Below, piece by piece: positions 1-34,811 of a stretch of DNA of 35,701 bases. Position 1 is the first letter of the stretch. Each line of letters opens with the position of its first letter. The translations under genes and the position numbers were made by a program. Source of the stretch: Lachnospiraceae bacterium (GTDB taxonomy: Bacteria > Bacillota > Clostridia > Lachnospirales > Lachnospiraceae). The notes under the pieces are model-generated. The model worked only from the letters and a program-made list of their open reading frames with translations, ran no database searches and was not told the DNA's origin. The DNA is taken from contig JAFRVX010000087.1 in assembly GCA_017438305.1 (NCBI GenBank), positions 1 through 35,701 on the forward strand, read 5' to 3'.

Positions 1-1
1 C

Positions 2-556
2 TTCACGGGCGTGTTTGAGGCGGCAGTCATCCATTACGCCGTGGCAAAGATATTCGGGCCGCTCCTTTTTGGCCGAGGATGGTGCGGATATGCCTGCTGG
101 ACGGCCATGGTGCTGGATTTTCTGCCCTATAAGGTTCCGGAAAAACCGGGAAAGAAGATCGGCTGGATAAGATATATCATCTTTGCCGCTTCCCTGATTT
201 TTGTTGCCGTACTGTTTCTGGCGCATGTCGGGAATATCGAAAGGATCATGTTCTGGGCGTTTATCGCCGGCAACGTTCTGTATTATGCGGCGGGGATCAT
301 CCTGGCCTTTGCCTTTAAGGATAACCGGGCCTTCTGCAAATATATCTGTCCGGTCACGGTCTTCCTGAAGCCCATGAGTTATTTCTCGCTTCTGAGAGTA
401 AGATGCGATAAGGAAAAATGCATCTCCTGCGGAAAGTGCAGACGGGTATGCCCCATGGAGGTAGATGTTACAGATAATTCAAGAAAAAGGAAAAACGGCA
501 CGGAGTGCATCCTCTGTATGGAGTGCGTAAAGAATTGTCCCAAAGAAGCACTTTGA
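2..556 (+). CDS. NapH-like membrane iron-sulfur protein, 5' end cut off by the window
   Basis: The frame is open to the window edge, so the true start lies upstream; the GTG at 11 is unlikely to be the start. The protein has membrane segments (one around IIFAASLIFVAVLFL, another around NVLYYAAGIILAFAF) and two polyferredoxin-type Cys motifs at membrane borders, GRGWCGYACW and FCKYICPVTVF, as in NapH/YccM/NosR-type proteins (Fer4_5). The C-terminus carries two classical ferredoxin motifs, CISCGKCRRVCP and CILCMECVKNCP, for two [4Fe-4S] clusters. Such proteins pass electrons between the membrane quinone or a flavoprotein and a partner. Its place upstream of a molybdoenzyme gene set fits that role, but the partner is inferred. 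Family assignment is firm; specific function is not. Confidence 0.85.
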   Translation, partial: FTGVFEAAVIHYAVAKIFGPLLFGRGWCGYACWTAMVLDFLPYKVPEKPGKKIGWIRYIIFAASLIFVAVLFLAHVGNIERIMFWAFIAGNVLYYAAGIILAFAFKDNRAFCKYICPVTVFLKPMSYFSLLRVRCDKEKCISCGKCRRVCPMEVDVTDNSRKRKNGTECILCMECVKNCPKEAL

Positions 557-702
557 TCTTCCGGCTGCAATAGCTTTGAGGACAGTGATCCGAGGTTTAT
601 GAAGGATCTCTGTTTCATTCGTGGTTCATGATTGACAGGAGTTATCAGAAAAGCGCCGGAAATCCCGGCCGGTCAGGATTTGAAAGAGAGGTCTGAAACA
701 AC

Positions 703-1146
703 ATGAAAAAACAAAGAATCTTATGGATGGTATTATTCATAGCTGCCGTGCTTTTGATCTTTGCCGCCTGTTCTTCACAGAATTCGAGAAGAAACCGTGT
801 CAGAAGACTGTATCAGAAGAACGAGGCGTCCTTTACGCAGGCAGCTTTGGGAAATGATTTTGCTTCCCTTGAGAAGGTCAGCGGCATCCTTGAGGTAAAG
901 ACGGAAAACGAACATGTGGATATTCGATGCAGAGCGGGAGGTTTTGCATCCGAGACCTGTTACTGCGGGATCTTCTATTCGGAAAAAGATGACCTTCTGG
1001 CCGAGTGCTTTTCCCCTGTTCCGGAAAATACGGAGAAACTGGAAGCGGACGGCAGCGGATACCGTTATCGGGAACCCGGCGGAGATAATCAGTACTATGT
1101 GGAAAGTCTCGGAAATCATTATTTTTACTATGAGACCCGGTACTGA
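703..1146 (+). CDS. Small lipoprotein of unknown function
   Basis: 147 residues. The N-terminus is a lipoprotein signal: basic MKKQR, a hydrophobic stretch, and lipobox FAAC with the Cys near residue 23, so the mature protein should be lipid-anchored outside the cell. The rest (about 120 residues, rich in charged and aromatic residues, with ETCYCGIFY in the middle and a Tyr-rich C-terminus) is not a family I recognise. An AGAGAGG-like ribosome binding site precedes the ATG. It sits between the NapH-like gene and the cyclase gene on the same strand, with 48 nt to the latter, so it may be co-transcribed with the molybdoenzyme locus. Function cannot be stated. Confidence 0.75.
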   Translation: MKKQRILWMVLFIAAVLLIFAACSSQNSRRNRVRRLYQKNEASFTQAALGNDFASLEKVSGILEVKTENEHVDIRCRAGGFASETCYCGIFYSEKDDLLAECFSPVPENTEKLEADGSGYRYREPGGDNQYYVESLGNHYFYYETRY

Positions 1147-1194
1147 CCCGGGCGATGATCCGGGCAATGGAGCGGCAAAGGAGCGTGTACAGAG

Positions 1195-1791
1195 ATGATC
1201 TATGATATTTCCCAGGAAGTTTTCAGCTGTGAGATATATCCCGGCGATCCTGCGCCGGAAAAACAGCTGTTCAGTTCAATGGAAAAAGGTGATCTGTATA
1301 ACCTGACGGTATTCAGCATGTGTGCCCATAACGGTACGCATGTGGACGCGCCGTTTCATTTCTTTCGGGAAGGGAAGACCGTAGACGCGGTCTCCCTGGA
1401 ACACTTTGTGGGGATGGCTTATGTTGCGGAGCACTGCGGGACCGTTTCCGGGGAAGACGCTGCGAATATCCTTGAAAAAGCAAAAAAGCGGGATCCGGAA
1501 GCGGCAAAAAGGATCCTGATAAAAGGGCCGGCCGTCGTCTCTTCCGAAGCGGCAAAAGTATTTGCTGCGGAAGGGATATGGCTTCTCGGCAATGAATCCC
1601 AGACCGTAGGGCCGGAGGACGCACCGATGGAAGTGCATCTCATCCTGTTGGGCGCCGGAACCGTACTGCTTGAAGGTATCCGTCTGGCAGCGGTTGAAGA
1701 GGGAACTTATTTTTTAAGCGCGGCTCCGTTGAATCTGTCCGGAGCGGACGGTTCACCCTGCAGAGCCGTATTGATAACAGCCGGAGAATAA
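1195..1791 (+). CDS. Cyclase family protein (kynurenine formamidase-like metal hydrolase)
   Basis: 198 residues, near the usual ~200 of the family (PF04199). The signature metal-binding segment HNGTHVDAPFHF is at residues 45-56, giving His45, His49, Asp51 and His55 as likely ligands for zinc or manganese. The start MIYDISQEVF and the segment IYPGDPAP are also typical of this family, which includes bacterial kynurenine formamidase KynB and isatin hydrolase. The substrate here is unknown. An AAGGAG ribosome binding site lies 11 nt before the ATG. It lies among redox genes, but no tryptophan-degradation genes are nearby, so a kynurenine role is not supported by context. Confidence 0.88.
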   Translation: MIYDISQEVFSCEIYPGDPAPEKQLFSSMEKGDLYNLTVFSMCAHNGTHVDAPFHFFREGKTVDAVSLEHFVGMAYVAEHCGTVSGEDAANILEKAKKRDPEAAKRILIKGPAVVSSEAAKVFAAEGIWLLGNESQTVGPEDAPMEVHLILLGAGTVLLEGIRLAAVEEGTYFLSAAPLNLSGADGSPCRAVLITAGE

Positions 1792-1802
1792 ACCGCCGGC
1801 TT

Positions 1803-1883
1803 CTGTTCATCCTGTTCATGGCCGTAACGGTCGCATTTGCCGTGCTGCTGTATAAAGGCGCGGAAAAGATAAAGAAGAAATGA
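1803..1883 (+). CDS. Possible small single-span membrane peptide (26 residues)
   Basis: Between the cyclase stop and the ferredoxin start there is an open frame encoding a hydrophobic span (FILFMAVTVAFAVLLY) followed by a basic tail KGAEKIKKK and a TGA at 1881. The frame stays open upstream through RRINRR, giving positive charges on both sides of the span. Possible starts are CTG 1803, ATG 1818 (which would cut the span) or a start inside the cyclase gene; none has a convincing ribosome binding site, so translation would need coupling to the cyclase gene. The stop overlaps the ribosome binding site of the next gene. The composition looks coding, but this may be chance. Confidence 0.3.
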   Translation: MFILFMAVTVAFAVLLYKGAEKIKKK

Positions 1884-1895
1884 GGAGGGTCAATC

Positions 1896-2453
1896 GTGTC
1901 AAATTATGGTTTTTTGTATGACCAGACCCGCTGTATCGGCTGCAATGCCTGCCAGATGGCCTGCAAGGACGGGCATGACCTGGAGGCGGGACTGTTTTTC
2001 CGCAGGGCGCAGACGCTGGAATACACGGATGATCAGGGCCGTCTTGCGGTCATGCATTATTCGGGCAGCTGCAATCATTGCCAGGACGCGCCGTGTATAG
2101 AACACTGCCCCACCGGCGCCATGCACCGGCAGGAGGATGGAACGGTCGCCGTCGATCCGGAGAAATGCATCGGCTGCGGGACCTGTACCTGGGTCTGCCC
2201 CTACGGCGCCCCGAAGGTGAGCCGCAGAACAGGCCGGTCCATGAAATGCGACGCCTGCCCGGACAGGCGGAAAGAGGGCAGGGAACCGCTTTGTGTGGAG
2301 GCCTGTCTGACCCACTGCCTGGCTTTTGTGGATCTGGACACCCTGACGGATGAAGAAAAGCAGCGCTGCACCAATACGCTGCCCATCCTGCCTTCTCCGG
2401 AAAAGACTCATCCGAACCTGCTGATCCTGGCAAAGGAGGCGTTTCATGGCTAA
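1896..2453 (+). CDS. DmsB-like ferredoxin subunit with four [4Fe-4S] clusters
   Basis: 185 residues starting at GTG, preceded by GAGGAGGG. Sixteen cysteines fall in the four-cluster pattern of DmsB/NrfC/PhsB electron-transfer subunits: CIGCNACQMAC, CNHCQDAPCIEHCPTGAM, CIGCGTCTWVCPYGAP and CDACPDRRKEGREPLCVEAC. It should carry electrons between the flavoprotein encoded next and the molybdoenzyme two genes downstream. No signal peptide or membrane span is seen, consistent with a cytoplasmic chain. Its stop overlaps the next gene by 8 nt, so the two are almost certainly translated together. No DmsC/NrfD-type membrane anchor gene is present in the window. Confidence 0.93.
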   Translation: MSNYGFLYDQTRCIGCNACQMACKDGHDLEAGLFFRRAQTLEYTDDQGRLAVMHYSGSCNHCQDAPCIEHCPTGAMHRQEDGTVAVDPEKCIGCGTCTWVCPYGAPKVSRRTGRSMKCDACPDRRKEGREPLCVEACLTHCLAFVDLDTLTDEEKQRCTNTLPILPSPEKTHPNLLILAKEAFHG

Positions 2454-3633
2454 ACGATATCTGGTTTTAGGAACCGGCATAGCCGGCCTGTCGGCTGCCC
2501 GAGAGATCCGCGGTCAGGATCCGGAAGCGGAGGTTTTGCTGATCGGTGCGGAGCCGGACAGCCCTTACCTGCGTCCACTCCTCAGCAAAACGGATTTCCG
2601 GCGGCTTCAGCGGCAGAAGATCCTGATCGAGGAAGAGCGCTGGTATGAAGAAAACAGGATCAGTCTGATGAAGGGATGCGCCGTGGCTGCCATCGATCCG
2701 AAGCAGCACCTGGTCACCCTTTCCGACGGCAGGAATCTTTCTTACGATAAATGCATTTATGCCCTGGGCGCGGACTGCTACGTGCCGCCCATTCCCGGCA
2801 GGGAAAAGGCAGGCGTGCTTACGCTTCGCACCATCGGGGATTTCCATAAGCTTAAAAAACACTCTTTTACCGCTGAAGAAGCCGTACTGATCGGCGGGGG
2901 CGTCATCGGCATTGAGATGGCCTGGGAACTGCGGCAGCTGGGCATCCGCTGCACCATTCTGGAAGCCATGCCCCGCCTGATGGCGCGGCAGCTGGACGAG
3001 GAATCGGCCGCGGTGCTTCAGGAAAGGATCATCGCAGCGGGCTGCGGATGCTGTACCGGCGCCGAGATCATTGAGATCACCGGTGAAGATAAGGCCGACG
3101 GCGTTCTTCTGGCGGACGGACGGCGTTTTCCGGCGGACATCGTCATTCTTTCCGCCGGAGTGCGCCCGGTGATCGGCCCGGCAAGGGACGCGGGGCTTGT
3201 GTGCGATCGCGGCGTGGTGACGGATACAGCGCTTTTTACCAGCGATCCGGATATCCTGGCGGCCGGTGACTGCATACAGTGCGGCGGTCCCAATCCGGGT
3301 CTGTGGAACTACGCCCGGATCTCCGGTGAGACGGCGGGTTACAACGCGGTCCATCCGGAGAAGGCAAAGACCTTTGAAGCCGGATCCTTCCCCCTCATCA
3401 TGTCGGCGATGGGCATGGGGCTTTATGCCTCAGGGAATACCGGGGAAACAGAGAATGTCACGGCCGTTCGGAAGCGGCGGCCAAACACGGCGGATCCGGG
3501 AGCCTTCCGCGTCAATCAGAACGCGCGGGGGGAAGAGACCTTTGAGAAACGATTTTATCAGGACGGGAAACTCTGCGGCGCGGTACTGATCGGCGATATC
3601 AGCGGCATGGCAGAGATCCCGGACGAATGGTAA
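2446..3633 (+). CDS. FAD/NAD(P)-dependent oxidoreductase, electron donor to the molybdoenzyme
   Basis: 395 residues. It has an N-terminal FAD-binding dinucleotide fold (GTGIAGLSAA, from residue 9), a second NAD(P)-binding fold (VLIGGGVIGIEMAWEL, about residue 147) and the FAD motif ILAAGDC near residue 270, as in rubredoxin reductase and the NirB N-terminal domain. It lacks an obvious active-site CxxC disulfide, so it is more likely an NAD(P)H:ferredoxin-type reductase than a disulfide reductase. AAAGGAGG lies 6 nt before the ATG, inside the previous gene. Gene order suggests it feeds electrons from NAD(P)H to the four-cluster ferredoxin and then to the molybdoenzyme; this coupling is inferred. 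Confidence 0.9.
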   Translation: MAKRYLVLGTGIAGLSAAREIRGQDPEAEVLLIGAEPDSPYLRPLLSKTDFRRLQRQKILIEEERWYEENRISLMKGCAVAAIDPKQHLVTLSDGRNLSYDKCIYALGADCYVPPIPGREKAGVLTLRTIGDFHKLKKHSFTAEEAVLIGGGVIGIEMAWELRQLGIRCTILEAMPRLMARQLDEESAAVLQERIIAAGCGCCTGAEIIEITGEDKADGVLLADGRRFPADIVILSAGVRPVIGPARDAGLVCDRGVVTDTALFTSDPDILAAGDCIQCGGPNPGLWNYARISGETAGYNAVHPEKAKTFEAGSFPLIMSAMGMGLYASGNTGETENVTAVRKRRPNTADPGAFRVNQNARGEETFEKRFYQDGKLCGAVLIGDISGMAEIPDEW

Positions 3634-3646
3634 GGAGGCGGCCGGA

Positions 3647-6448
3647 ATGAAAGAAAGAAAAACTTGGCAGGAACTCATCAGCCGCCCGGCGGATTTCCTG
3701 GAGAGCCGGGAGAAGGGGATGGCCGTCTGCGCGTCCTTTCCGGGCTTCAAAGCGCATACGGTAAGAGACTGGGAGCTGATGTACGATTTCTGCTTCCGCG
3801 GAACGGATGCGGACTTTACGCCGCCCCTGTGGGCTTCGGTCTGCCTGGGCGAAAAGGCGCTCCTCAACCAGACGACGCTGGAGATCATCCGGTTCTATCA
3901 TCGGTGGGGGTATGAGCCTCAGTGGATCGAAGGCAATCCGCCGGACTATCTGGGGGAAATGTTCCGTTTCTTCGAATATCTGCTTTTCGCGGAAGGCGGA
4001 GATCTTCCGGCCCGCGTACAGGCCGCAGAGGATTTCCTGGATAATTATCTTCTGGAAGGACTGAAGGCCCTTACCGAAAGCCTGGCGGGTTATCCGGACG
4101 TTTATCCCGATATCCCGGCGTTTTTCCGGGAGGTGCTCTCGGAACTCAGTCTTCGGGAGATCACCGAGGAGGATCTTGGCGGCGGCGGATATGCACTGAA
4201 AGCGCCTGTCCCGGATGAGGAAGAACATATCATCAACAGCGGCGGCCTCAATAACTGCGGCGGGATCTGTGTGATCCGGCCCCACGTCCGGGAAAACTGC
4301 GTGCTGCAGATCGAATCCGACTGCAATCCTTCCCATGCGCCTCAGATCAGAGCCTGTGTCCGCGGCCGCGGCTACCGGAAGACCTATCTGAATCCCGACC
4401 GGCTGCGTTATCCGATGCGCCGGCTCGGCGAACGGGGAAGCGGGAAATTTGAACGGATCAGCTGGGAAGAAGCGGTCAGCGAGGTGGCGGATAATATCCG
4501 GCGCACCGGCCGCCTGTACGGCCCGGGAAGCCGCTTCGTCCTGTACGGCACGGGGGTGTGCGGCATCATGCGTCCCGGCACGCTGATGAACCGGCTGCTT
4601 GCGCTGGACGGCGGCTATCTGGATGCCTATAATTCCTACAGCTCCGCCTGCGTAACCTATATATCCGATTATGTTTACGGGACGCCGAACGGCGGCAGCA
4701 GCGCTTCCACCCAGCTGGATGCGAAGCTGATGATCCTCTGGGCGGCCAATACGGCAGAAACGATCTTCGGCCCGGAACGGAATTATTATCTGTCCCAGCT
4801 GAAGCAGAAGGGCGTGAAGATCATAGCCGTCGACCCTCGCCTCAGCCAGACGGCGGTGGCCTACGCGGACGAATGGTTTGCGCTCAGACCGTCCACCGAT
4901 GCGGCGCTGGCGGACGCCATGGCGTACGTCATCTTCGAGGAAGGCCTGCAGGATCAGCATTTCATCGATACCTACTGTTTCGGTTTCGACGAGGAACATA
5001 TGCCGGAAGGCGTGCCGGCGGGAGAAAGCTATCACAGCTATCTATTCTGCGTAAAAGACGGTATTCAGAAGACGCCTGAGTGGGCGGAAGCGATCACGGG
5101 GATCGAAGCGCAGCGTATCCGGGCTCTGGCCAGGGAATACGCCACAACGAAACCTGCCTGCATCGAAGCCGGTTTCGGCGCCCAGCGCCACGGCAACGGC
5201 GAACAGTCCGCCCGCGCCCTGATGATGCTCTCCTGCCTGACCGGCAATGTGGGCGTCAGCGGCGGAAGCAGCTGCGCCAACGGGAGCCGCATCAATGAAC
5301 ATACGCCGATGGCGAATTATCTTCTGCGCACAAGGAATCCCTATCCCGGAAGGATCCCCACGTTTTTATGGACCAAAGCCATAGAGCACGGTACCGAACT
5401 GGAACCGCTTAAAGACGGGATCAAAGGGACGGAGAAGCTGGACAGCAATATCAAGATGCTCTTCTGCATGGCCAGCAACATCCTGATCAACCAGCACAGC
5501 AATATCAACGATACCATCCGTATTCTGAAGGATGACAGCAAGTGTGAGATGATCGTCTGTTCCGACGTCTTCATGACGCCCAGCGCCCGGTACGCGGATC
5601 TTGTGCTCCCGGCCACTTCGGTATTTGAAGGGGAAAATATGATCAGCCCCTGGGCGGGCAGCAACTATTATCTGAAGCATAACCGGGTCATCCGGCCCCT
5701 CTTCGGCTGCCGTTTCGAATTTGACTGGCTGAAGGAAGCCGCCGCCCGTTTAGGTCTGTACGATGACTTTATTGATGGAAAACCGGAGGTCAGCGACTGG
5801 CTGAAAGCCAATTACGCGTATATCCGGGAAAGAGAACCGGAGCTGCCGGACTATGAGACTTTCAGCCGGGAGGGCGGCTGGCAGTTCAAAGAGCAGATCA
5901 AAGCGGTGGGTTTTGAGCAGGAGATCAAAGACCCGGCAAACCATCCCTTCCCGACGCCCTCCGGAAAGATAGAGATCTTTTCAAAAAGGCTTTACGATCT
6001 GGATCAGCCGGATATCGCCGCGATCCCCCGCTATATGCGCTGTCCCGAAGGGCCGGAGGATCCTCTCAGGGAGAAATATCCGCTGCAGCTGATCGGCTGG
6101 CATACAAGGCGCCGGGCGCATTCCATCCATGACAACAATGAATGGCAGGATGAAGTGGAAAAACCCGGTGTCTGGATCCATCCGGAGGATGCGGCCGACC
6201 GCGGCATCCGGGACGGAGAGATGACAGAGGTCTATAATGACCGGGGATGCATCCGCATCCCGGCGGTCGTGACGGAAAGGATCCGGCAGGGGGTGGCGGC
6301 CATTTCCCAGGGCGGCTGGTTTACGCCGGACAAACAGGGTACCGATACCCGCGGCAGCATCAATGTGCTGACGTCCACCGCCTATCCCACGCCGATCGCC
6401 AAGGGAAACCCCCAGCATACGAACCTGGTGGAGATCCGTAAAGCATAA
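3647..6448 (+). CDS. DmsA-like molybdopterin oxidoreductase with an N-terminal TorD-like chaperone domain
   Basis: 933 residues. Residues about 1-178 look like a TorD/DmsD chaperone: helical, with PPDYLGEMFRFFEYLLF (98-114) matching the family's conserved PxDHLxxE region, and FLDNYL. From about residue 195 it is a complete DMSO-reductase-family catalytic subunit, closely DmsA-like: Cys204, Cys208 and Cys237 (ACVRGRGYRK) near the Fe-S site, NPDRLRYPMRR, KFERISWEEA, YNSYSSACV (330s; a Ser is the probable Mo ligand), VDPRLSQT, GFGAQRHGNGEQ, NILINQHSNIND and a C-terminal MGD-binding domain ending NPQHTNLVEI. The first Cys of the usual CxxxCxxxC motif is Gly200. There is no Tat signal, so the enzyme should be cytoplasmic. 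AAGGAGG precedes the ATG. The substrate is unknown; an S- or N-oxide or similar acceptor is possible. Confidence 0.93.
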   Translation: MKERKTWQELISRPADFLESREKGMAVCASFPGFKAHTVRDWELMYDFCFRGTDADFTPPLWASVCLGEKALLNQTTLEIIRFYHRWGYEPQWIEGNPPDYLGEMFRFFEYLLFAEGGDLPARVQAAEDFLDNYLLEGLKALTESLAGYPDVYPDIPAFFREVLSELSLREITEEDLGGGGYALKAPVPDEEEHIINSGGLNNCGGICVIRPHVRENCVLQIESDCNPSHAPQIRACVRGRGYRKTYLNPDRLRYPMRRLGERGSGKFERISWEEAVSEVADNIRRTGRLYGPGSRFVLYGTGVCGIMRPGTLMNRLLALDGGYLDAYNSYSSACVTYISDYVYGTPNGGSSASTQLDAKLMILWAANTAETIFGPERNYYLSQLKQKGVKIIAVDPRLSQTAVAYADEWFALRPSTDAALADAMAYVIFEEGLQDQHFIDTYCFGFDEEHMPEGVPAGESYHSYLFCVKDGIQKTPEWAEAITGIEAQRIRALAREYATTKPACIEAGFGAQRHGNGEQSARALMMLSCLTGNVGVSGGSSCANGSRINEHTPMANYLLRTRNPYPGRIPTFLWTKAIEHGTELEPLKDGIKGTEKLDSNIKMLFCMASNILINQHSNINDTIRILKDDSKCEMIVCSDVFMTPSARYADLVLPATSVFEGENMISPWAGSNYYLKHNRVIRPLFGCRFEFDWLKEAAARLGLYDDFIDGKPEVSDWLKANYAYIREREPELPDYETFSREGGWQFKEQIKAVGFEQEIKDPANHPFPTPSGKIEIFSKRLYDLDQPDIAAIPRYMRCPEGPEDPLREKYPLQLIGWHTRRRAHSIHDNNEWQDEVEKPGVWIHPEDAADRGIRDGEMTEVYNDRGCIRIPAVVTERIRQGVAAISQGGWFTPDKQGTDTRGSINVLTSTAYPTPIAKGNPQHTNLVEIRKA

Positions 6449-6477
6449 ACAGGCGGCAGGGCATAAACAGGCGGCAG
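6443..6477 (+). repeat. Tandem duplication spanning the molybdoenzyme stop codon
   Basis: The 17-base string GCATAAACAGGCGGCAG occurs at 6443-6459 and again at 6461-6477 (period 18). The first copy contains the final Ala codon and TAA stop of the molybdoenzyme gene. It looks like a recent short duplication with no coding effect. Confidence 0.85.
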
Positions 6478-6554
6478 AAGCATTCAACAGCTGCTGCCCT
6501 GAACATCTGTCCGGGCCGCTGTGCGGTCTGAAGAAGGGTTTCGGGAGGAAATCT

Positions 6555-7253
6555 GTGAAATATAAAAAACTACAGCAGCTGCTTTTCTGGACGCTCTGCT
6601 GCGATCTGGGGCTATTCGCCAAGCGGCTGATCGCTCCGGGCGCCAATCTGATCACGGAAGCCCTTCATATCCCCGGAGGGATCGGGACCAGCTTCTCCCT
6701 GATGTTTCTGGTGATCGGTTCCTGTGTGATCCCGCGTTTCGGCAGCGGTATGCTTATGGGAGCGGTGCAGAGCATGCTGGCAGTGTTTTTCGGCATGACC
6801 GGGAGCATGGGCTTTCTTGCCCCTGTCGGGTATATTATTCCGGGACTGATCGTGGATATCGTCCTGTGGGCAGGCAGAAAAAGCCGGCTGGGCAACCTGT
6901 CAGGCTGCCTGCTGGCCAATATGCTTTCATCGGCTGCGGCGGCGCTTACGGCAAACTTCATTGTTTTCCGGCTGCAGGGCATCGTCCTGATGCTGTATGC
7001 GGCGGTCAGTCTCTTTACCGGAGCGGTCTGCGGCCTTGCGGCGGGGAAAACGGCCGGATATCTGGAAGTTATTTTGAAAATTCGTGAAAAGAAGGATATG
7101 AGTCATGCGGCAGAAAAGAATCATTATACTGATCCTTCTGATCCTGGCGGCAGCGGCAGCGCTGCTTGCGGTCCTGCATCTTACGGGGGACAGGACTGCG
7201 GAACCGGGCAGGGTGGAGATCAGCCGGAAGGATCAGAAACGGTCTGCAGGTGA
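6555..7253 (+). CDS. ECF transporter S-component-like membrane protein
   Basis: The GTG start is preceded by GGGAGG. The first about 178 residues form a small, very hydrophobic integral membrane protein with about five or six spans and Gly/Pro-rich loops (PRFGSGMLMGAVQSM, FLAPVGYIIPGLIVD). This resembles substrate-binding S-components of energy-coupling factor transporters, perhaps of the YkoE/ThiW type, which take up vitamins or cofactor precursors. The ECF ATPase and T genes are not nearby, as is normal for shared-module ECF systems. From about residue 183 (MSHAAEK) the frame runs 149 nt into the next gene and encodes a low-complexity Gly/Ser tail, probably because the original stop was lost. 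Lying between the molybdoenzyme and mobA suggests a cofactor-related substrate, but this is a guess. Confidence 0.6.
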   Translation: MKYKKLQQLLFWTLCCDLGLFAKRLIAPGANLITEALHIPGGIGTSFSLMFLVIGSCVIPRFGSGMLMGAVQSMLAVFFGMTGSMGFLAPVGYIIPGLIVDIVLWAGRKSRLGNLSGCLLANMLSSAAAALTANFIVFRLQGIVLMLYAAVSLFTGAVCGLAAGKTAGYLEVILKIREKKDMSHAAEKNHYTDPSDPGGSGSAACGPASYGGQDCGTGQGGDQPEGSETVCR

Positions 7254-7569
7254 GGCGGATATTGCCCGGATCCCGGTAAAGGGCGAACTGGTCAACGGAA
7301 AAGGGGAGAAGGTCAGCATAGACGCAAAAGGAAGCCTGCTGGCGGACCTGCTGACGCGCGCCGGTATCGATCCGGCCGAAGTATCGGTCCTGAAAATAAC
7401 GTCTCAGGACGCGTATTCCGCCGAGGTCTCCGGGGAAGAACTGCGGGAAGCAGGCAAGGTATATCTGGTCAGCGAGGACGATGGCACTTTTACGCTGGTC
7501 GTTTTCGGCGACAGCAATTCAAAACGCAAAGTAAAGAACACAGTACGAATAGAGGTCGATCCGGAATGA
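7105..7569 (+). CDS. Membrane-anchored small protein, weakly like a sulfite-oxidase-type molybdopterin fold
   Basis: 154 residues. MRQKR is followed by an Ile/Leu/Ala-rich span, giving an N-terminal signal anchor, so the rest should face outward. The mature part (LLADLLTRAGID, VLKITSQDAYSAEVSGEEL, VYLVSEDDGTFTLVVFGD, VKNTVRIEVD) follows the order of conserved segments in the C-terminal part of YedY/MsrP-type sulfite-oxidase-fold domains (PF00174), but it is much shorter and lacks the cofactor cysteine region. GAAGGAT gives a ribosome binding site 8 nt before the ATG. It starts inside the 3' end of the previous frame and overlaps mobA by 4 nt, so it is part of the operon. The family call is tentative. 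Confidence 0.65.
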   Translation: MRQKRIIILILLILAAAAALLAVLHLTGDRTAEPGRVEISRKDQKRSAGEADIARIPVKGELVNGKGEKVSIDAKGSLLADLLTRAGIDPAEVSVLKITSQDAYSAEVSGEELREAGKVYLVSEDDGTFTLVVFGDSNSKRKVKNTVRIEVDPE

Positions 7570-8150
7570 AGATTGAAGAAACAGCTGCCATTATCCTGGC
7601 CGGGGGACAAAGCTCGCGCATGGGTACGGATAAAGCGAAGCTTCGGGTGGGAGAAAAAACTCTGTTGGAGCTGATGACGGAAAAGGTGAGACGCCTGGGG
7701 ATCACCGAGATCGTCGTATCCGGCTGTTCCGACTGTCCGCCGGGAACCACCTTTGTCCCGGACATGATCCCGGGACGGGGCCCTTTAAGCGGTATCCACG
7801 CAGGACTGCGGCAGATCCGTCACCGGTCCGGCCTGGTGCTGCCGGTGGATACGCCCCTCATCCCGGAAGAAACCCTGCGGCTTCTTATCGAAGCCCACGG
7901 AGACCTTCCGATCACTGTCCTGACGTTTAATGGCCGCCCGGAGCCTCTGGCGGCGGTCTATGACGCCTGCCTGGTTCAGGACTGCGAAAGGATCCTGAAG
8001 GAAGAAAAAACCAGCCCCCGCAGATTGTTTGACCTGTACGGGTATCATCCCGTTCCCTATACGAAAGATCCGGACCTCCTGATCAACTGCAACACGCCGG
8101 AAGAATTCGCCCGGGTGCAGGCAGGATACAGATCACCGGATGCATTTTAA
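7566..8150 (+). CDS. mobA: Molybdenum cofactor guanylyltransferase MobA
   Basis: 194 residues, the usual length. The nucleotide-binding signature ILAGGQSSRMGTDKAKL is at residues 10-26. PVDTPLI takes the place of the usual C-D-M-P-F metal-binding segment, RPEPLAAVYD matches the conserved R-x-Q/E-P-L-x-A region, and INCNTPEE is the typical C-terminal motif. MobA joins GMP to molybdopterin to make the MGD cofactor that DMSO-reductase-family enzymes need. The ATGA overlap with the previous gene and the terminator 53 nt downstream mark it as the last gene of the molybdoenzyme operon, so enzyme and cofactor maturation are probably co-expressed. Confidence 0.93.
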   Translation: MKIEETAAIILAGGQSSRMGTDKAKLRVGEKTLLELMTEKVRRLGITEIVVSGCSDCPPGTTFVPDMIPGRGPLSGIHAGLRQIRHRSGLVLPVDTPLIPEETLRLLIEAHGDLPITVLTFNGRPEPLAAVYDACLVQDCERILKEEKTSPRRLFDLYGYHPVPYTKDPDLLINCNTPEEFARVQAGYRSPDAF

Positions 8151-8202
8151 GAATAACCGCCCGGCGGCCCTTCGGCCTGAAGCGGACAGAGAGTACATTT
8201 TA

Positions 8203-8245
8203 AGACACCGGCGGCGTCTGAAAAGACGTTATCGGTGTCTTTTTT
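8203..8245 (+). terminator. Intrinsic terminator of the molybdoenzyme operon
   Basis: AGACACCG (8203-8210) pairs with CGGTGTCT (8233-8240), and an inner CGTCT pairs with AGACG. The stem runs straight into a T tract. It lies 53 nt after the mobA stop. Confidence 0.9.
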
Positions 8246-8318
8246 GCGAAAATCGTCAAAAGAAGCGTAAAATCCAGACTTGCCGTGCTGTTTTGTATCC
8301 CTTTTGTAACCCTCGCCT

Positions 8319-8326
8319 GTTATAAT
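8319..8326 (+). promoter_or_regulatory. Extended -10 promoter for the secreted-protein pseudogene
   Basis: TGTTATAAT is a perfect extended -10 element (TGnTATAAT). No good -35 box stands 16-18 nt upstream, as is common for extended -10 promoters. It lies after the mobA terminator and about 115 nt before the start codon at 8444. Confidence 0.65.
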
Positions 8327-8443
8327 GGCACCGGATCAAAGAATTAGACTGCAGAAGTATGAAACAAATCGTACGGCACGGCCTGAGCCATGCCGCAAGA
8401 TGCAGCATTCTTTAAAAGATCATCAGAGAAAGGAAACACTGTG

Positions 8444-9615
8444 ATGAAGATATTCAAAGCAGCAGCCGCGGCCGTTCTGGCACTGGCACTTCTGATCCAG
8501 ATGCCTGCCCGCGCCTATGCACAGACACAGAACGCGGACACTAAGGATTACATCAGCGAAGTGAAGATCGCTATGGGCGGCGACGCGGAGAAAGCCCTGG
8601 AAGGTTATACCATTCTGAGCGACGAGAATGGCAAGGCCGTCGACCTGAACAAGGACGCCGGCGGCGGCTGGGGCTCCCAGGGAGACAAGAGAGTCATCCT
8701 GGGTTACAAGACCACGAAGGAACAGAGTGAAGCCATCACAGACCTGGCTGTCATGAACATGAAGGGCGGCTATGACGTACAGGAATACGAAGCGCTTATA
8801 AAGCAGCGGATGGACAGCCAGGTCATCCCCCTTATTCAGAAGCTCCAGGCGGCGAAAGATTTCGAAGATGACGCCAGGACCCTGCTGCAGAACTGGGATG
8901 CTTTCCGTGAAGTATTGATCAGCGCGGATGAAAAAGCCGCAGGGCTGGAGGAGATACGGTCTTCCTGGGCTACCGCTCCGGATCCTATAACTGGGACGAG
9001 ATCAACAGGCAGGGTTCCGAGGACGAAAGAAAGGCTGTCATGAAGCGCCAGGAAAGAGATGCCATCTACGACATCATCGTTACCCGGAATGAGCCCTATC
9101 ATGCGGAAGGCATCGTCAGCAAGGGAATCTATTTCACGCCGGCATCCGGGAAGAGCCTGAATTCAGGCTGCATCACCGGCTCGCCCATTTATGTGTATTA
9201 CGCGACGCCGTATCATTCCCAGGCCTACAACAAGAGGACGAACCAGTCGACGATCTCTCCGGAGACGGTCTTCTCCGGTTTCATCACCCGTCTGGGATTT
9301 GGCGAAAAAGACCGGGTACCGTATAATAGTTTCAAAGAGGAAGATATGACCTATACGATGAAGCGCTCAATCGCGGCGGTCAGCGGAAAAGGTTATAACG
9401 AGTATCTCCCCTGGGAATATGTCATGGAGAGGGACGATGCAGCGCCGATAGACGTGAACTACGGCGCGGCGAGCTGCAACGGCGACTACTGCGAAGACGT
9501 CCGGATCCACATGTTCGCCCAGCGGTCCAACGGCAGGGTGAAGCCCGCCGGACAGATCACGGGAGGCTTCCTGGAAAGCACCTATGAGGTCGGCGACGTG
9601 TATCTTAAAAAATAA
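8444..9615 (+). pseudogene. Secreted surface protein gene broken by a one-base frameshift
   Basis: The start is ATG 8444 after AGAAAGGA. The first residues, MKIFKAAAAAVLALALLIQ, are a signal peptide with likely cleavage after AYA. The first frame runs to about 8935, then degenerates and stops at 9043. From about 8932 a second frame is clearly coding (GDTVFLGYRSGSYNWDEI, then through MKRQERDAIYDIIVTRNEP) and continues to 9615. The switch maps to an A5 run at 8931-8935: one extra A would give a single open frame reading SADEKSRRAGGDTVFLGY, about 390 residues. Conserved-looking segments such as VMNMKGGYDVQEYEALIKQ and SGFITRLGF remind me of Lachnospiraceae surface proteins, but I cannot name a function. 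It may be a true frameshift, an assembly error, or slippage on the A run. Confidence 0.75.
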
Positions 9616-34613: not shown

Positions 34614-34792
34614 GATATAGTCGCCAAAAGTAGATTCCGGATGGTTCCGTGCTTCGCACTCCCACCATCCTCCCTCATTCCGCACTCTCGTGGAGTAAAA
34701 ACTCCACTTCGTGCTTCATGAGGGGCACGCCAAGAAGTCTTTTCTCCACTGGAATGTAAACATTCCGTGGAGTCCGACTTTTGGCGTTGGAA
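34614..34792. mobile_element. Candidate MITE or structured RNA element flanked by a 9-bp direct repeat
   Basis: TCATATCAT occurs at 34605-34613 and 34793-34801, exactly flanking a 179-bp segment like a target-site duplication. Near the ends, CGCCAAAAGT (34622-34631) and ACTTTTGGCG (34777-34786) are perfect inverted repeats. Inside are three strong hairpins: GGATGG/CCATCC (34639-34670) around GTGC-TTC-GCAC; CCCTCAT/ATGAGGG (34672-34724) enclosing GCAC/GTGC and GTGGAGT-AAAA-ACTCCAC; and CTCCAC plus GGAATGT with ACATTCC plus GTGGAG (34744-34772). The whole could fold as a four-way junction. There is no coding frame or transposase, so it would be non-autonomous. A structured ncRNA is the alternative. 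Confidence 0.65.
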
Positions 34793-34811
34793 TCATATCA
34801 TTATTTATATC

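Follow-up and report, generated by a model that had tools for sequence, protein, structure and literature searches.

We analyzed a 35,701-nucleotide stretch of DNA from a Lachnospiraceae bacterium (GCA_017438305.1, contig JAFRVX010000087.1, positions 1-35,701; hereafter the window, meaning this whole stretch) and confirmed that the open reading frame at positions 3647-6448 of its forward strand encodes a TorD-type chaperone and a DmsA-type molybdoenzyme subunit as one chain without a twin-arginine translocation (Tat) signal. The product is probably a DmsA-family S- or N-oxide reductase that works in the cytoplasm and carries what was once a dedicated TorD-type chaperone as its N-terminal domain; the nature of the substrate (S- or N-oxide) is presumed from the family only.

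A TorD-type chaperone and DmsA in one open reading frame

The fused frame has a GGAGG site ahead of its ATG start and runs through 933 amino acids without a stop. Its TorD/NarJ-family domain (residues 1-178, positions 3647-4180, forward strand) was recognized by PF02613 at residues 35-136 when residues 1-198 were searched (36.1 bits, E 8e-9, cut-off 22.2). The catalytic subunit (residues 190-933, positions 4214-6445, forward strand) matched TIGR02166, the dimethyl sulfoxide (DMSO)/selenate reductase A subunit family, with 872.2 bits against a cut-off of 777.7, and also exceeded the cut-offs of PF00384 and PF01568. An initial annotation of this DNA, made from the sequence alone, had described a TorD-like N-terminus that runs unbroken into DmsA and had proposed the PF02613 search of the N-terminus that is given here; with both halves over their cut-offs in a single frame, that description is borne out. 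The same is true of its claim that the protein lacks a Tat signal, as none was visible in the window protein, neither at the N-terminus nor at the TorD/DmsA junction. The stretch from about residue 158 to the Fe-S motif was found to hold a single in-frame start codon, a GTG at residue 163, within the TorD domain. An AlphaFold2 model of the whole chain, built with a 37-row alignment, has a mean predicted local distance difference test (pLDDT) score of 92.5 and a predicted template modelling (pTM) score of 0.92, and residues 2-169 are all-helical in this model, with no strands of three or more residues.

The TorD part is under purifying selection. Its ratio of nonsynonymous to synonymous substitution rates (dN/dS) was 0.14, 0.15 and 0.10 in the three comparisons among the window, L011 and L012, and that of the DmsA part was about 0.06. 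Three residues of the domain, Pro98, Asp100 and Gly103, are conserved in the alignment of the first seven fused rows. Furthermore, no match to PF02613 or PF00384 other than the fused gene was found in the window genome, and in six of the seven genomes with a fused copy this copy is the only PF02613 match, the other genome, G739, having two further matches.

Distribution of the fusion

PF02613 was searched in samples of the order (295 genomes), class (391 genomes) and phylum (398 genomes), and six genomes besides that of the window carry fused copies (G138, G178, G491, G568, G739 and G1057), in frames of 938 to 1048 amino acids. An alignment of the seven fused proteins served as the query for a genome_contigs pattern scan, in which the best 80 of at least 530 confirmed relatives were kept; these loci were chosen by their score against a fused query and so permit no inference on the frequency of the fusion. 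In 30 of the 80 scan loci, a single open frame covers both TorD and DmsA. Together with the window and the six genomes, these make up 37 fused rows (35 distinct, as L012 equals L036 and L035 equals L055), for which the 50 unfused scan loci form the comparison set (87 rows in all). The survey of homologues suggested by the initial annotation thus found the same fusion in 35 distinct loci, and the idea that the fusion is unique to the window genome was rejected.

Among the isolates with the fusion are Clostridium sp. DSM 17811 (L052), Oribacterium sp. C9 (L060) and Acetitomaculum ruminis DSM 5522 (L097). In the isolate Lachnospiraceae bacterium MC2017 (L037 4995-7124) the fused frame is broken further on, inside the DmsA part, and in L039, L048, L049 and L111 it reaches the contig end. 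All fused rows are labeled as Bacillota groups or lie in the window's phylum, save one draft genome labeled Planctomycetaceae (L056).

The window genome, from a bacterium of a gut and rumen group, is itself a draft, with completeness at 81 percent and contamination at 5.77 percent. In the near surroundings of the window, the N-terminal domain was found in none of 60 relatives, 14 of them of the same genus. The closest catalytic part, at 93 percent identity, sits in another family of the same order, which suggests horizontal transfer. A 91 percent match to the contig's substrate-binding protein exists within the genus (G003), and the contig therefore looks native.

Origin of the fusion

A separate TorD gene is present in 20 of the 50 unfused loci; it lies upstream of dmsA in 18 of them (about 600-900 bases, same direction), and in L078 the upstream torD is split in two pieces. 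A Tat signal starts the dmsA downstream of the separate torD in Alkaliphilus (L062), Tissierella (L063) and many Bacillaceae. Two separate genes, which the initial annotation had named as evidence against a fusion, are thus found in relatives. Since many independently assembled genomes, and isolates too, have the fused frame without a stop, we read the arrangement with torD as its own gene immediately before a Tat-bearing dmsA as the ancestral state. Given the adjacency of the two genes in relatives, the fusion joins two neighbors and replaces the Tat region.

The tree and the approximately unbiased (AU) tests used 58 of the 87 rows, with near-copies among those dropped, and the AU tests were also without L068, the 5' end of which is cut. 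In the tree of the 58 catalytic parts, the fused row L034 groups with Tat-bearing rows that have a separate torD, and its TorD part is closest to the separate TorDs of L063 (43 percent) and L062 (39 percent). A single origin of all fused rows was rejected (p 2e-5), whereas one origin for the fused rows minus L034 was not (p 0.58). At least two fusion events are the simplest account of these sequences. The Hungatella-type rows, in which both a TorD domain and a nearby torD are absent, may represent a loss or a separate line.

The FS0 site of the catalytic part

The initial annotation had also called the catalytic part a full DmsA-like subunit. This stands as far as the TIGR02166 score is concerned and does not stand for the FS0 iron-sulfur site, where the Fe4S4 motif of the window protein, NSGGLNNCGGIC (positions 4214-4360, residues 190-238), is without its first cysteine and PF04879 (Fe4S4) reaches 13.5 bits, under its cut-off of 22.7. 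None of the seven proteins first aligned has the first FS0 cysteine. No Cys occurs in the six residues preceding the second FS0 Cys in 33 of the 37 fused and 20 of the 50 unfused rows, the latter including the Tat-bearing L061, L062 and L063. Since the cysteine is absent in unfused rows too, it was lost before the fusion or independently of it, and an explanation of the loss as a consequence of the fusion was rejected. Ser332, which we take to be the Mo-ligand position, is invariant in 37 rows, Enterobacteria included. The FS0 of NarG is a His-ligated [4Fe-4S] cluster according to a review (PMC10609526), and an altered FS0 ligand is therefore not fatal by itself.

Probable electron partners and cellular site

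Two genes that precede the fused gene on the forward strand encode candidate electron partners. One is a DmsB-like ferredoxin subunit (positions 1896-2453) in which no Tat signal was seen; it scores 169 bits with TIGR02951, under the cut-off of 214.1, and is over the cut-off for Fer4 families. The other is a NAD(P)H/FAD oxidoreductase (positions 2446-3633; PF07992, Pyr_redox_2, 189.3 bits), the proposed electron donor, whose gene overlaps dmsB and ends 13 bases ahead of the fused gene. A separate oxidoreductase gene lies near 18 of the 37 fused rows (17 of the 35 distinct ones) versus none of the 50 unfused. In seven Erysipelotrichaceae loci of a sister clade, from Solobacterium and relatives (L043 3741-7811, L045, L046, L047, L049, L050 and L051), the chain is 1325-1357 amino acids long (about 1356 in Solobacterium) with its Fe-S motif near residue 600-630, and the extra N-terminal part ahead of TorD-DmsA in L043, the only long chain tested against Pfam, is a Pyr_redox_2 domain (196.5 bits). 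Fusions of other composition occur in related DmsA proteins, namely DmsA-MobA-MobB in L077 (4968-8234) and DmsA-ferredoxin in L103 (103-2850).

The linked or fused oxidoreductase, the DmsB-like ferredoxin and the other fusions favor a soluble, cytoplasmic, NADH-linked reductase. In this scheme the enzyme would stay in the cytoplasm, and electrons would pass from NADH to the FAD protein, from there to the DmsB-like ferredoxin and finally to the reductase.

Two further loci (L065 4941-7820 and L076 4962-7832) encode a DmsA whose C-terminal part, about 200 amino acids long, resembles by eye an SGNH/GDSL-type hydrolase. Upstream of the operon, the window encodes a NapH-like ferredoxin membrane protein (positions 2-556), which is below its NCBIfam cut-off, and an arylformamidase/cyclase-like protein (positions 1195-1791).

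Proposed role of the tethered chaperone domain

The TorD domain would hold the apo-enzyme, tethered at a 1:1 ratio, for the insertion of iron-sulfur clusters and of bis-molybdopterin guanine dinucleotide. As the initial annotation had proposed, a cytoplasmic site is the best reading, and built-in cofactor loading would be the best inference for what the domain does there. The PxDH motif bears on this role. In the window it reads PPDYLG, with the Asp kept and the His changed to Tyr; most members of the main fused clade have PPDY or similar, and the His is kept in L032, L033, L034 and L070. Many separate TorDs of this group have PDDH in this region and others have PADH or PEDH, and a search for the PxDH pattern gave no match in L056, L057 and several separate TorDs. 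We take the PxDH His to be part of the leader-binding pocket of DmsD; this is an assumption of ours. No passage naming PxDH residues was found in PMC4464133. With export lost, proofreading of a signal peptide would be dispensable, and we read the Tyr as a possible sign of relaxed leader recognition with the second role, cofactor loading, kept.

Several observations weigh against this account. The cofactor-loading role is assigned by family, and the window protein lacks the first FS0 cysteine described above. A loose Tat pattern matched three fused rows (L040, L041 and L048). The membrane anchor DmsC was found in none of the 37 fused loci and in only six of the 50 unfused ones by a search that is insensitive, and the absence of an anchor is thus weakly supported. 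Finally, closely related, cytoplasmic-looking DmsAs of the Hungatella group have no TorD domain and no torD within 5 kb, and hence some of these enzymes can do without the domain.

That Hungatella-type relatives manage without the domain would also fit a TorD domain that is a retained structural module, stabilizing the mature enzyme or holding DmsB or the FAD protein, with its role in cofactor insertion gone. The Tyr in place of the PxDH His in the main fused clade would suit such a module, as would the predicted structure, in which the domain appears ordered and rigidly placed, as a structural module would be. Nevertheless, we regard this alternative as unlikely, because Asp100, Pro98 and Gly103 are conserved in the first seven fused rows, because the TorD part is under purifying selection and because six of the seven genomes are without another PF02613 match. 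That the fusion comes from misassembly or a frameshift, or that the gene is decaying, as might be feared from a draft genome of limited completeness with no copy of the domain in 60 relatives, deserves almost no credence given the 35 distinct loci (the three isolates named above among them), the low dN/dS and the native look of the contig, and an artefact of assembly in particular was rejected because the same architecture recurs in many independent assemblies.

Downstream genes and a possible cofactor supply

Three genes follow the fused gene on the forward strand; like the missing FS0 cysteine, they had escaped the initial annotation. The first encodes a membrane protein, here called GX (positions 6555-7253), that resembles the S component of energy-coupling factor (ECF) transporters; it scores 19.7 bits with PF09819, under the cut-off of 25.2, and its relatives terminate at a point that corresponds roughly to base 7103. 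PF09819 matches nine of the 11 members of the GX family (best E 6.9e-7), and no relatives of GX were found in PDB up to E 10.

The second gene encodes a small protein (positions 7105-7569) that is sulfite oxidase (SUOX)-like and is modeled as a beta domain behind a single N-terminal membrane helix (pLDDT 86, pTM 0.71). PF00174 matches five of the 11 members of this family below its cut-off (best E 7.9e-4), the window protein not among them. When the family and the L014 proteins were compared with PDB, the best match was the pterin-binding protein PruR (7kp2, E 0.024), its Agrobacterium counterpart 7kos following at E 0.33, and unrelated neuropilin chains scored E 0.15-0.69 in the same match list; for the longer SUOX-like protein of L014 no PDB relative was found. 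The beta domain may be weakly similar to sulfite-oxidase-fold pterin binders. Both PruR and the 7105 protein are small and of extracytoplasmic type; unlike PruR, however, the 7105 protein is membrane-anchored and adjoins an ECF-S-like gene rather than DcpA.

The third gene encodes a MobA-like guanylyltransferase for formation of molybdopterin guanine dinucleotide (positions 7566-8150), which is over the cut-off for PF12804 (115.6 bits) and has TIGR02665 as its best NCBIfam match, at 94.5 bits, under the cut-off of 151.85.

The first two genes form a pair, in that both are present in all 12 rows that have either. Neither MoeA (PF03453) nor MoaA (PF06463) was found in the window genome, in the two nearest fused genomes (G138 and G178) or in G003, which is of the same genus and has no match to the fused N-terminal domain; G491, G568, G739 and G1057 have both. 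The genomes without MoaA and MoeA are drafts, 77-88 percent complete. MoaA was surveyed in 57 genomes, those of 50 of the 80 scan loci and the seven genomes with fused copies, with G003 and the L014 genome standing outside the survey. It is missing in ten of the 11 genomes with the pair near dmsA, the exception being L043, versus seven of the 46 without it, and when only loci of at least 8 kb are counted, in ten of 11 versus three of 39. The corresponding Fisher p values are 4e-6 and 3e-7, kinship being uncorrected and the signal coming from about four lineages. Oribacterium sp. C9 (L060) has a fused TorD-DmsA, no MoaA found in its genome and no pair within 5 kb.

A riboswitch for the molybdenum cofactor (Moco), RF01055, was found with Rfam in six of 12 sources with the pair versus none of ten without it (22 distinct loci or windows, L062 and L063 left out). 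In L038 and L014 it immediately precedes the pair, and in L043, L045, L048 and L050 it precedes a run of MobA and the pair. In the window no Moco riboswitch was found at the gathering score, nor any up to E 3 in bases 1-9500. The riboswitch of L014 is followed (2640-6605) by an S component that is over the cut-off for PF09819 (43.9 bits), two sub-threshold PF00174 proteins, an ABC ATPase and CbiQ, a complete ECF set that adjoins dmsB, a Tat-bearing dmsA and torD. The Rfam search also placed a Clostridiales-1 RNA in the window (RF01699, 101.9 bits, positions 34632-34795, reverse strand).

An import of Moco or molybdopterin, with MobA and TorD acting afterwards, would be consistent with the downstream genes. 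For the other purposes that they might serve, namely transport of molybdate, of tungstate or of another pterin, or outward transport of cofactor for extracellular proteins, with MoaA missing through incompleteness, we see close to an even chance. Most MoaA-negative genomes are drafts, L043 holds MoaA as well as the pair, and L047, L060 and L071 lack both MoaA and the pair at loci over 8 kb. In addition, PMC13259868 describes the pocket of PruR, which among solved structures comes closest to the SUOX-like protein, as probably too small for Moco. The absence of MoaA from ten of 11 versus seven of 46 genomes speaks against these other purposes, as does the lack of MoeA too in three genomes of the window type, given the strong purifying selection on the DmsA part; a molybdate importer, moreover, would be of little use without MoaA.

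A self-contained salvage kit, for a cell that itself makes no molybdopterin, is a tentative possibility, in which GX as ECF-type importer and the 7105 protein as pterin binder would take up Moco or molybdopterin from neighbors, MobA would make the guanine dinucleotide form, TorD would load it and the reductase would reoxidize NADH. The draft genomes, the L043 exception, the three MoaA-negative loci without the pair and the small PruR pocket all count against salvage, as do the window's lack of the riboswitch and the sub-threshold matches of its GX and 7105 proteins.

Relation to known systems and implications

Both halves of the fusion exceed curated cut-offs for their families, and chaperone and enzyme are genetic partners in relatives, as with TorD/DmsD/NarJ and DmsA; the difference is that they form one polypeptide without a Tat signal here, whereas separate proteins are the rule in the reviews PMC10609526 and PMC4464133. 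The Tat signal carried by DmsA in the DmsABC complex is absent from the window protein and present in relatives with a separate torD such as L062 and L063. The window protein is also distinct from the BisC family, with 375 bits for TIGR00509 (bisC_fam), far under the cut-off of 1018. Reductases of the BisC type are cytoplasmic, and this site and S-oxide chemistry would be common to both. Mycobacterial NarX, which includes a NarJ-like part, is likened here by description only: it shares with the window protein the fusion of nitrate-reductase-type parts and differs in belonging to another enzyme branch. PMC7759655 describes it as a fused-domain nitrate reductase of unclear function, without nitrate reductase activity. 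As the initial annotation had supposed in knowing of no characterized example, no paper on a TorD-DmsA fusion was found in the open-licence literature, and the fusion appears to be a new form of a known chaperone-enzyme pair, with NarX as the nearest printed case found. Within the same literature no paper was found that describes a bacterial Moco importer or a Moco-linked ECF system.

For the TorD family, the mode of enzyme-side recognition and the stoichiometry are called unsettled in section 6 of a 2023 review (PMC10609526). Here nature supplies a 1:1 fusion, expressible as a single chain, with which the chaperone's hold on the enzyme, and their ratio, can be tested directly. The repeated fusions to an oxidoreductase, a chaperone, a ferredoxin and MobA-MobB, moreover, name the partners of a cytoplasmic DmsA. 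Cells that need Moco are said, in the abstract of PMC9793310, to have to make their own, the nematode being treated as the exception. If the downstream genes do import Moco, salvage by a bacterial importer would be new in kind, the view that cells must synthesize their own would need revising for bacteria, and Moco would be among the cofactors traded in the rumen.

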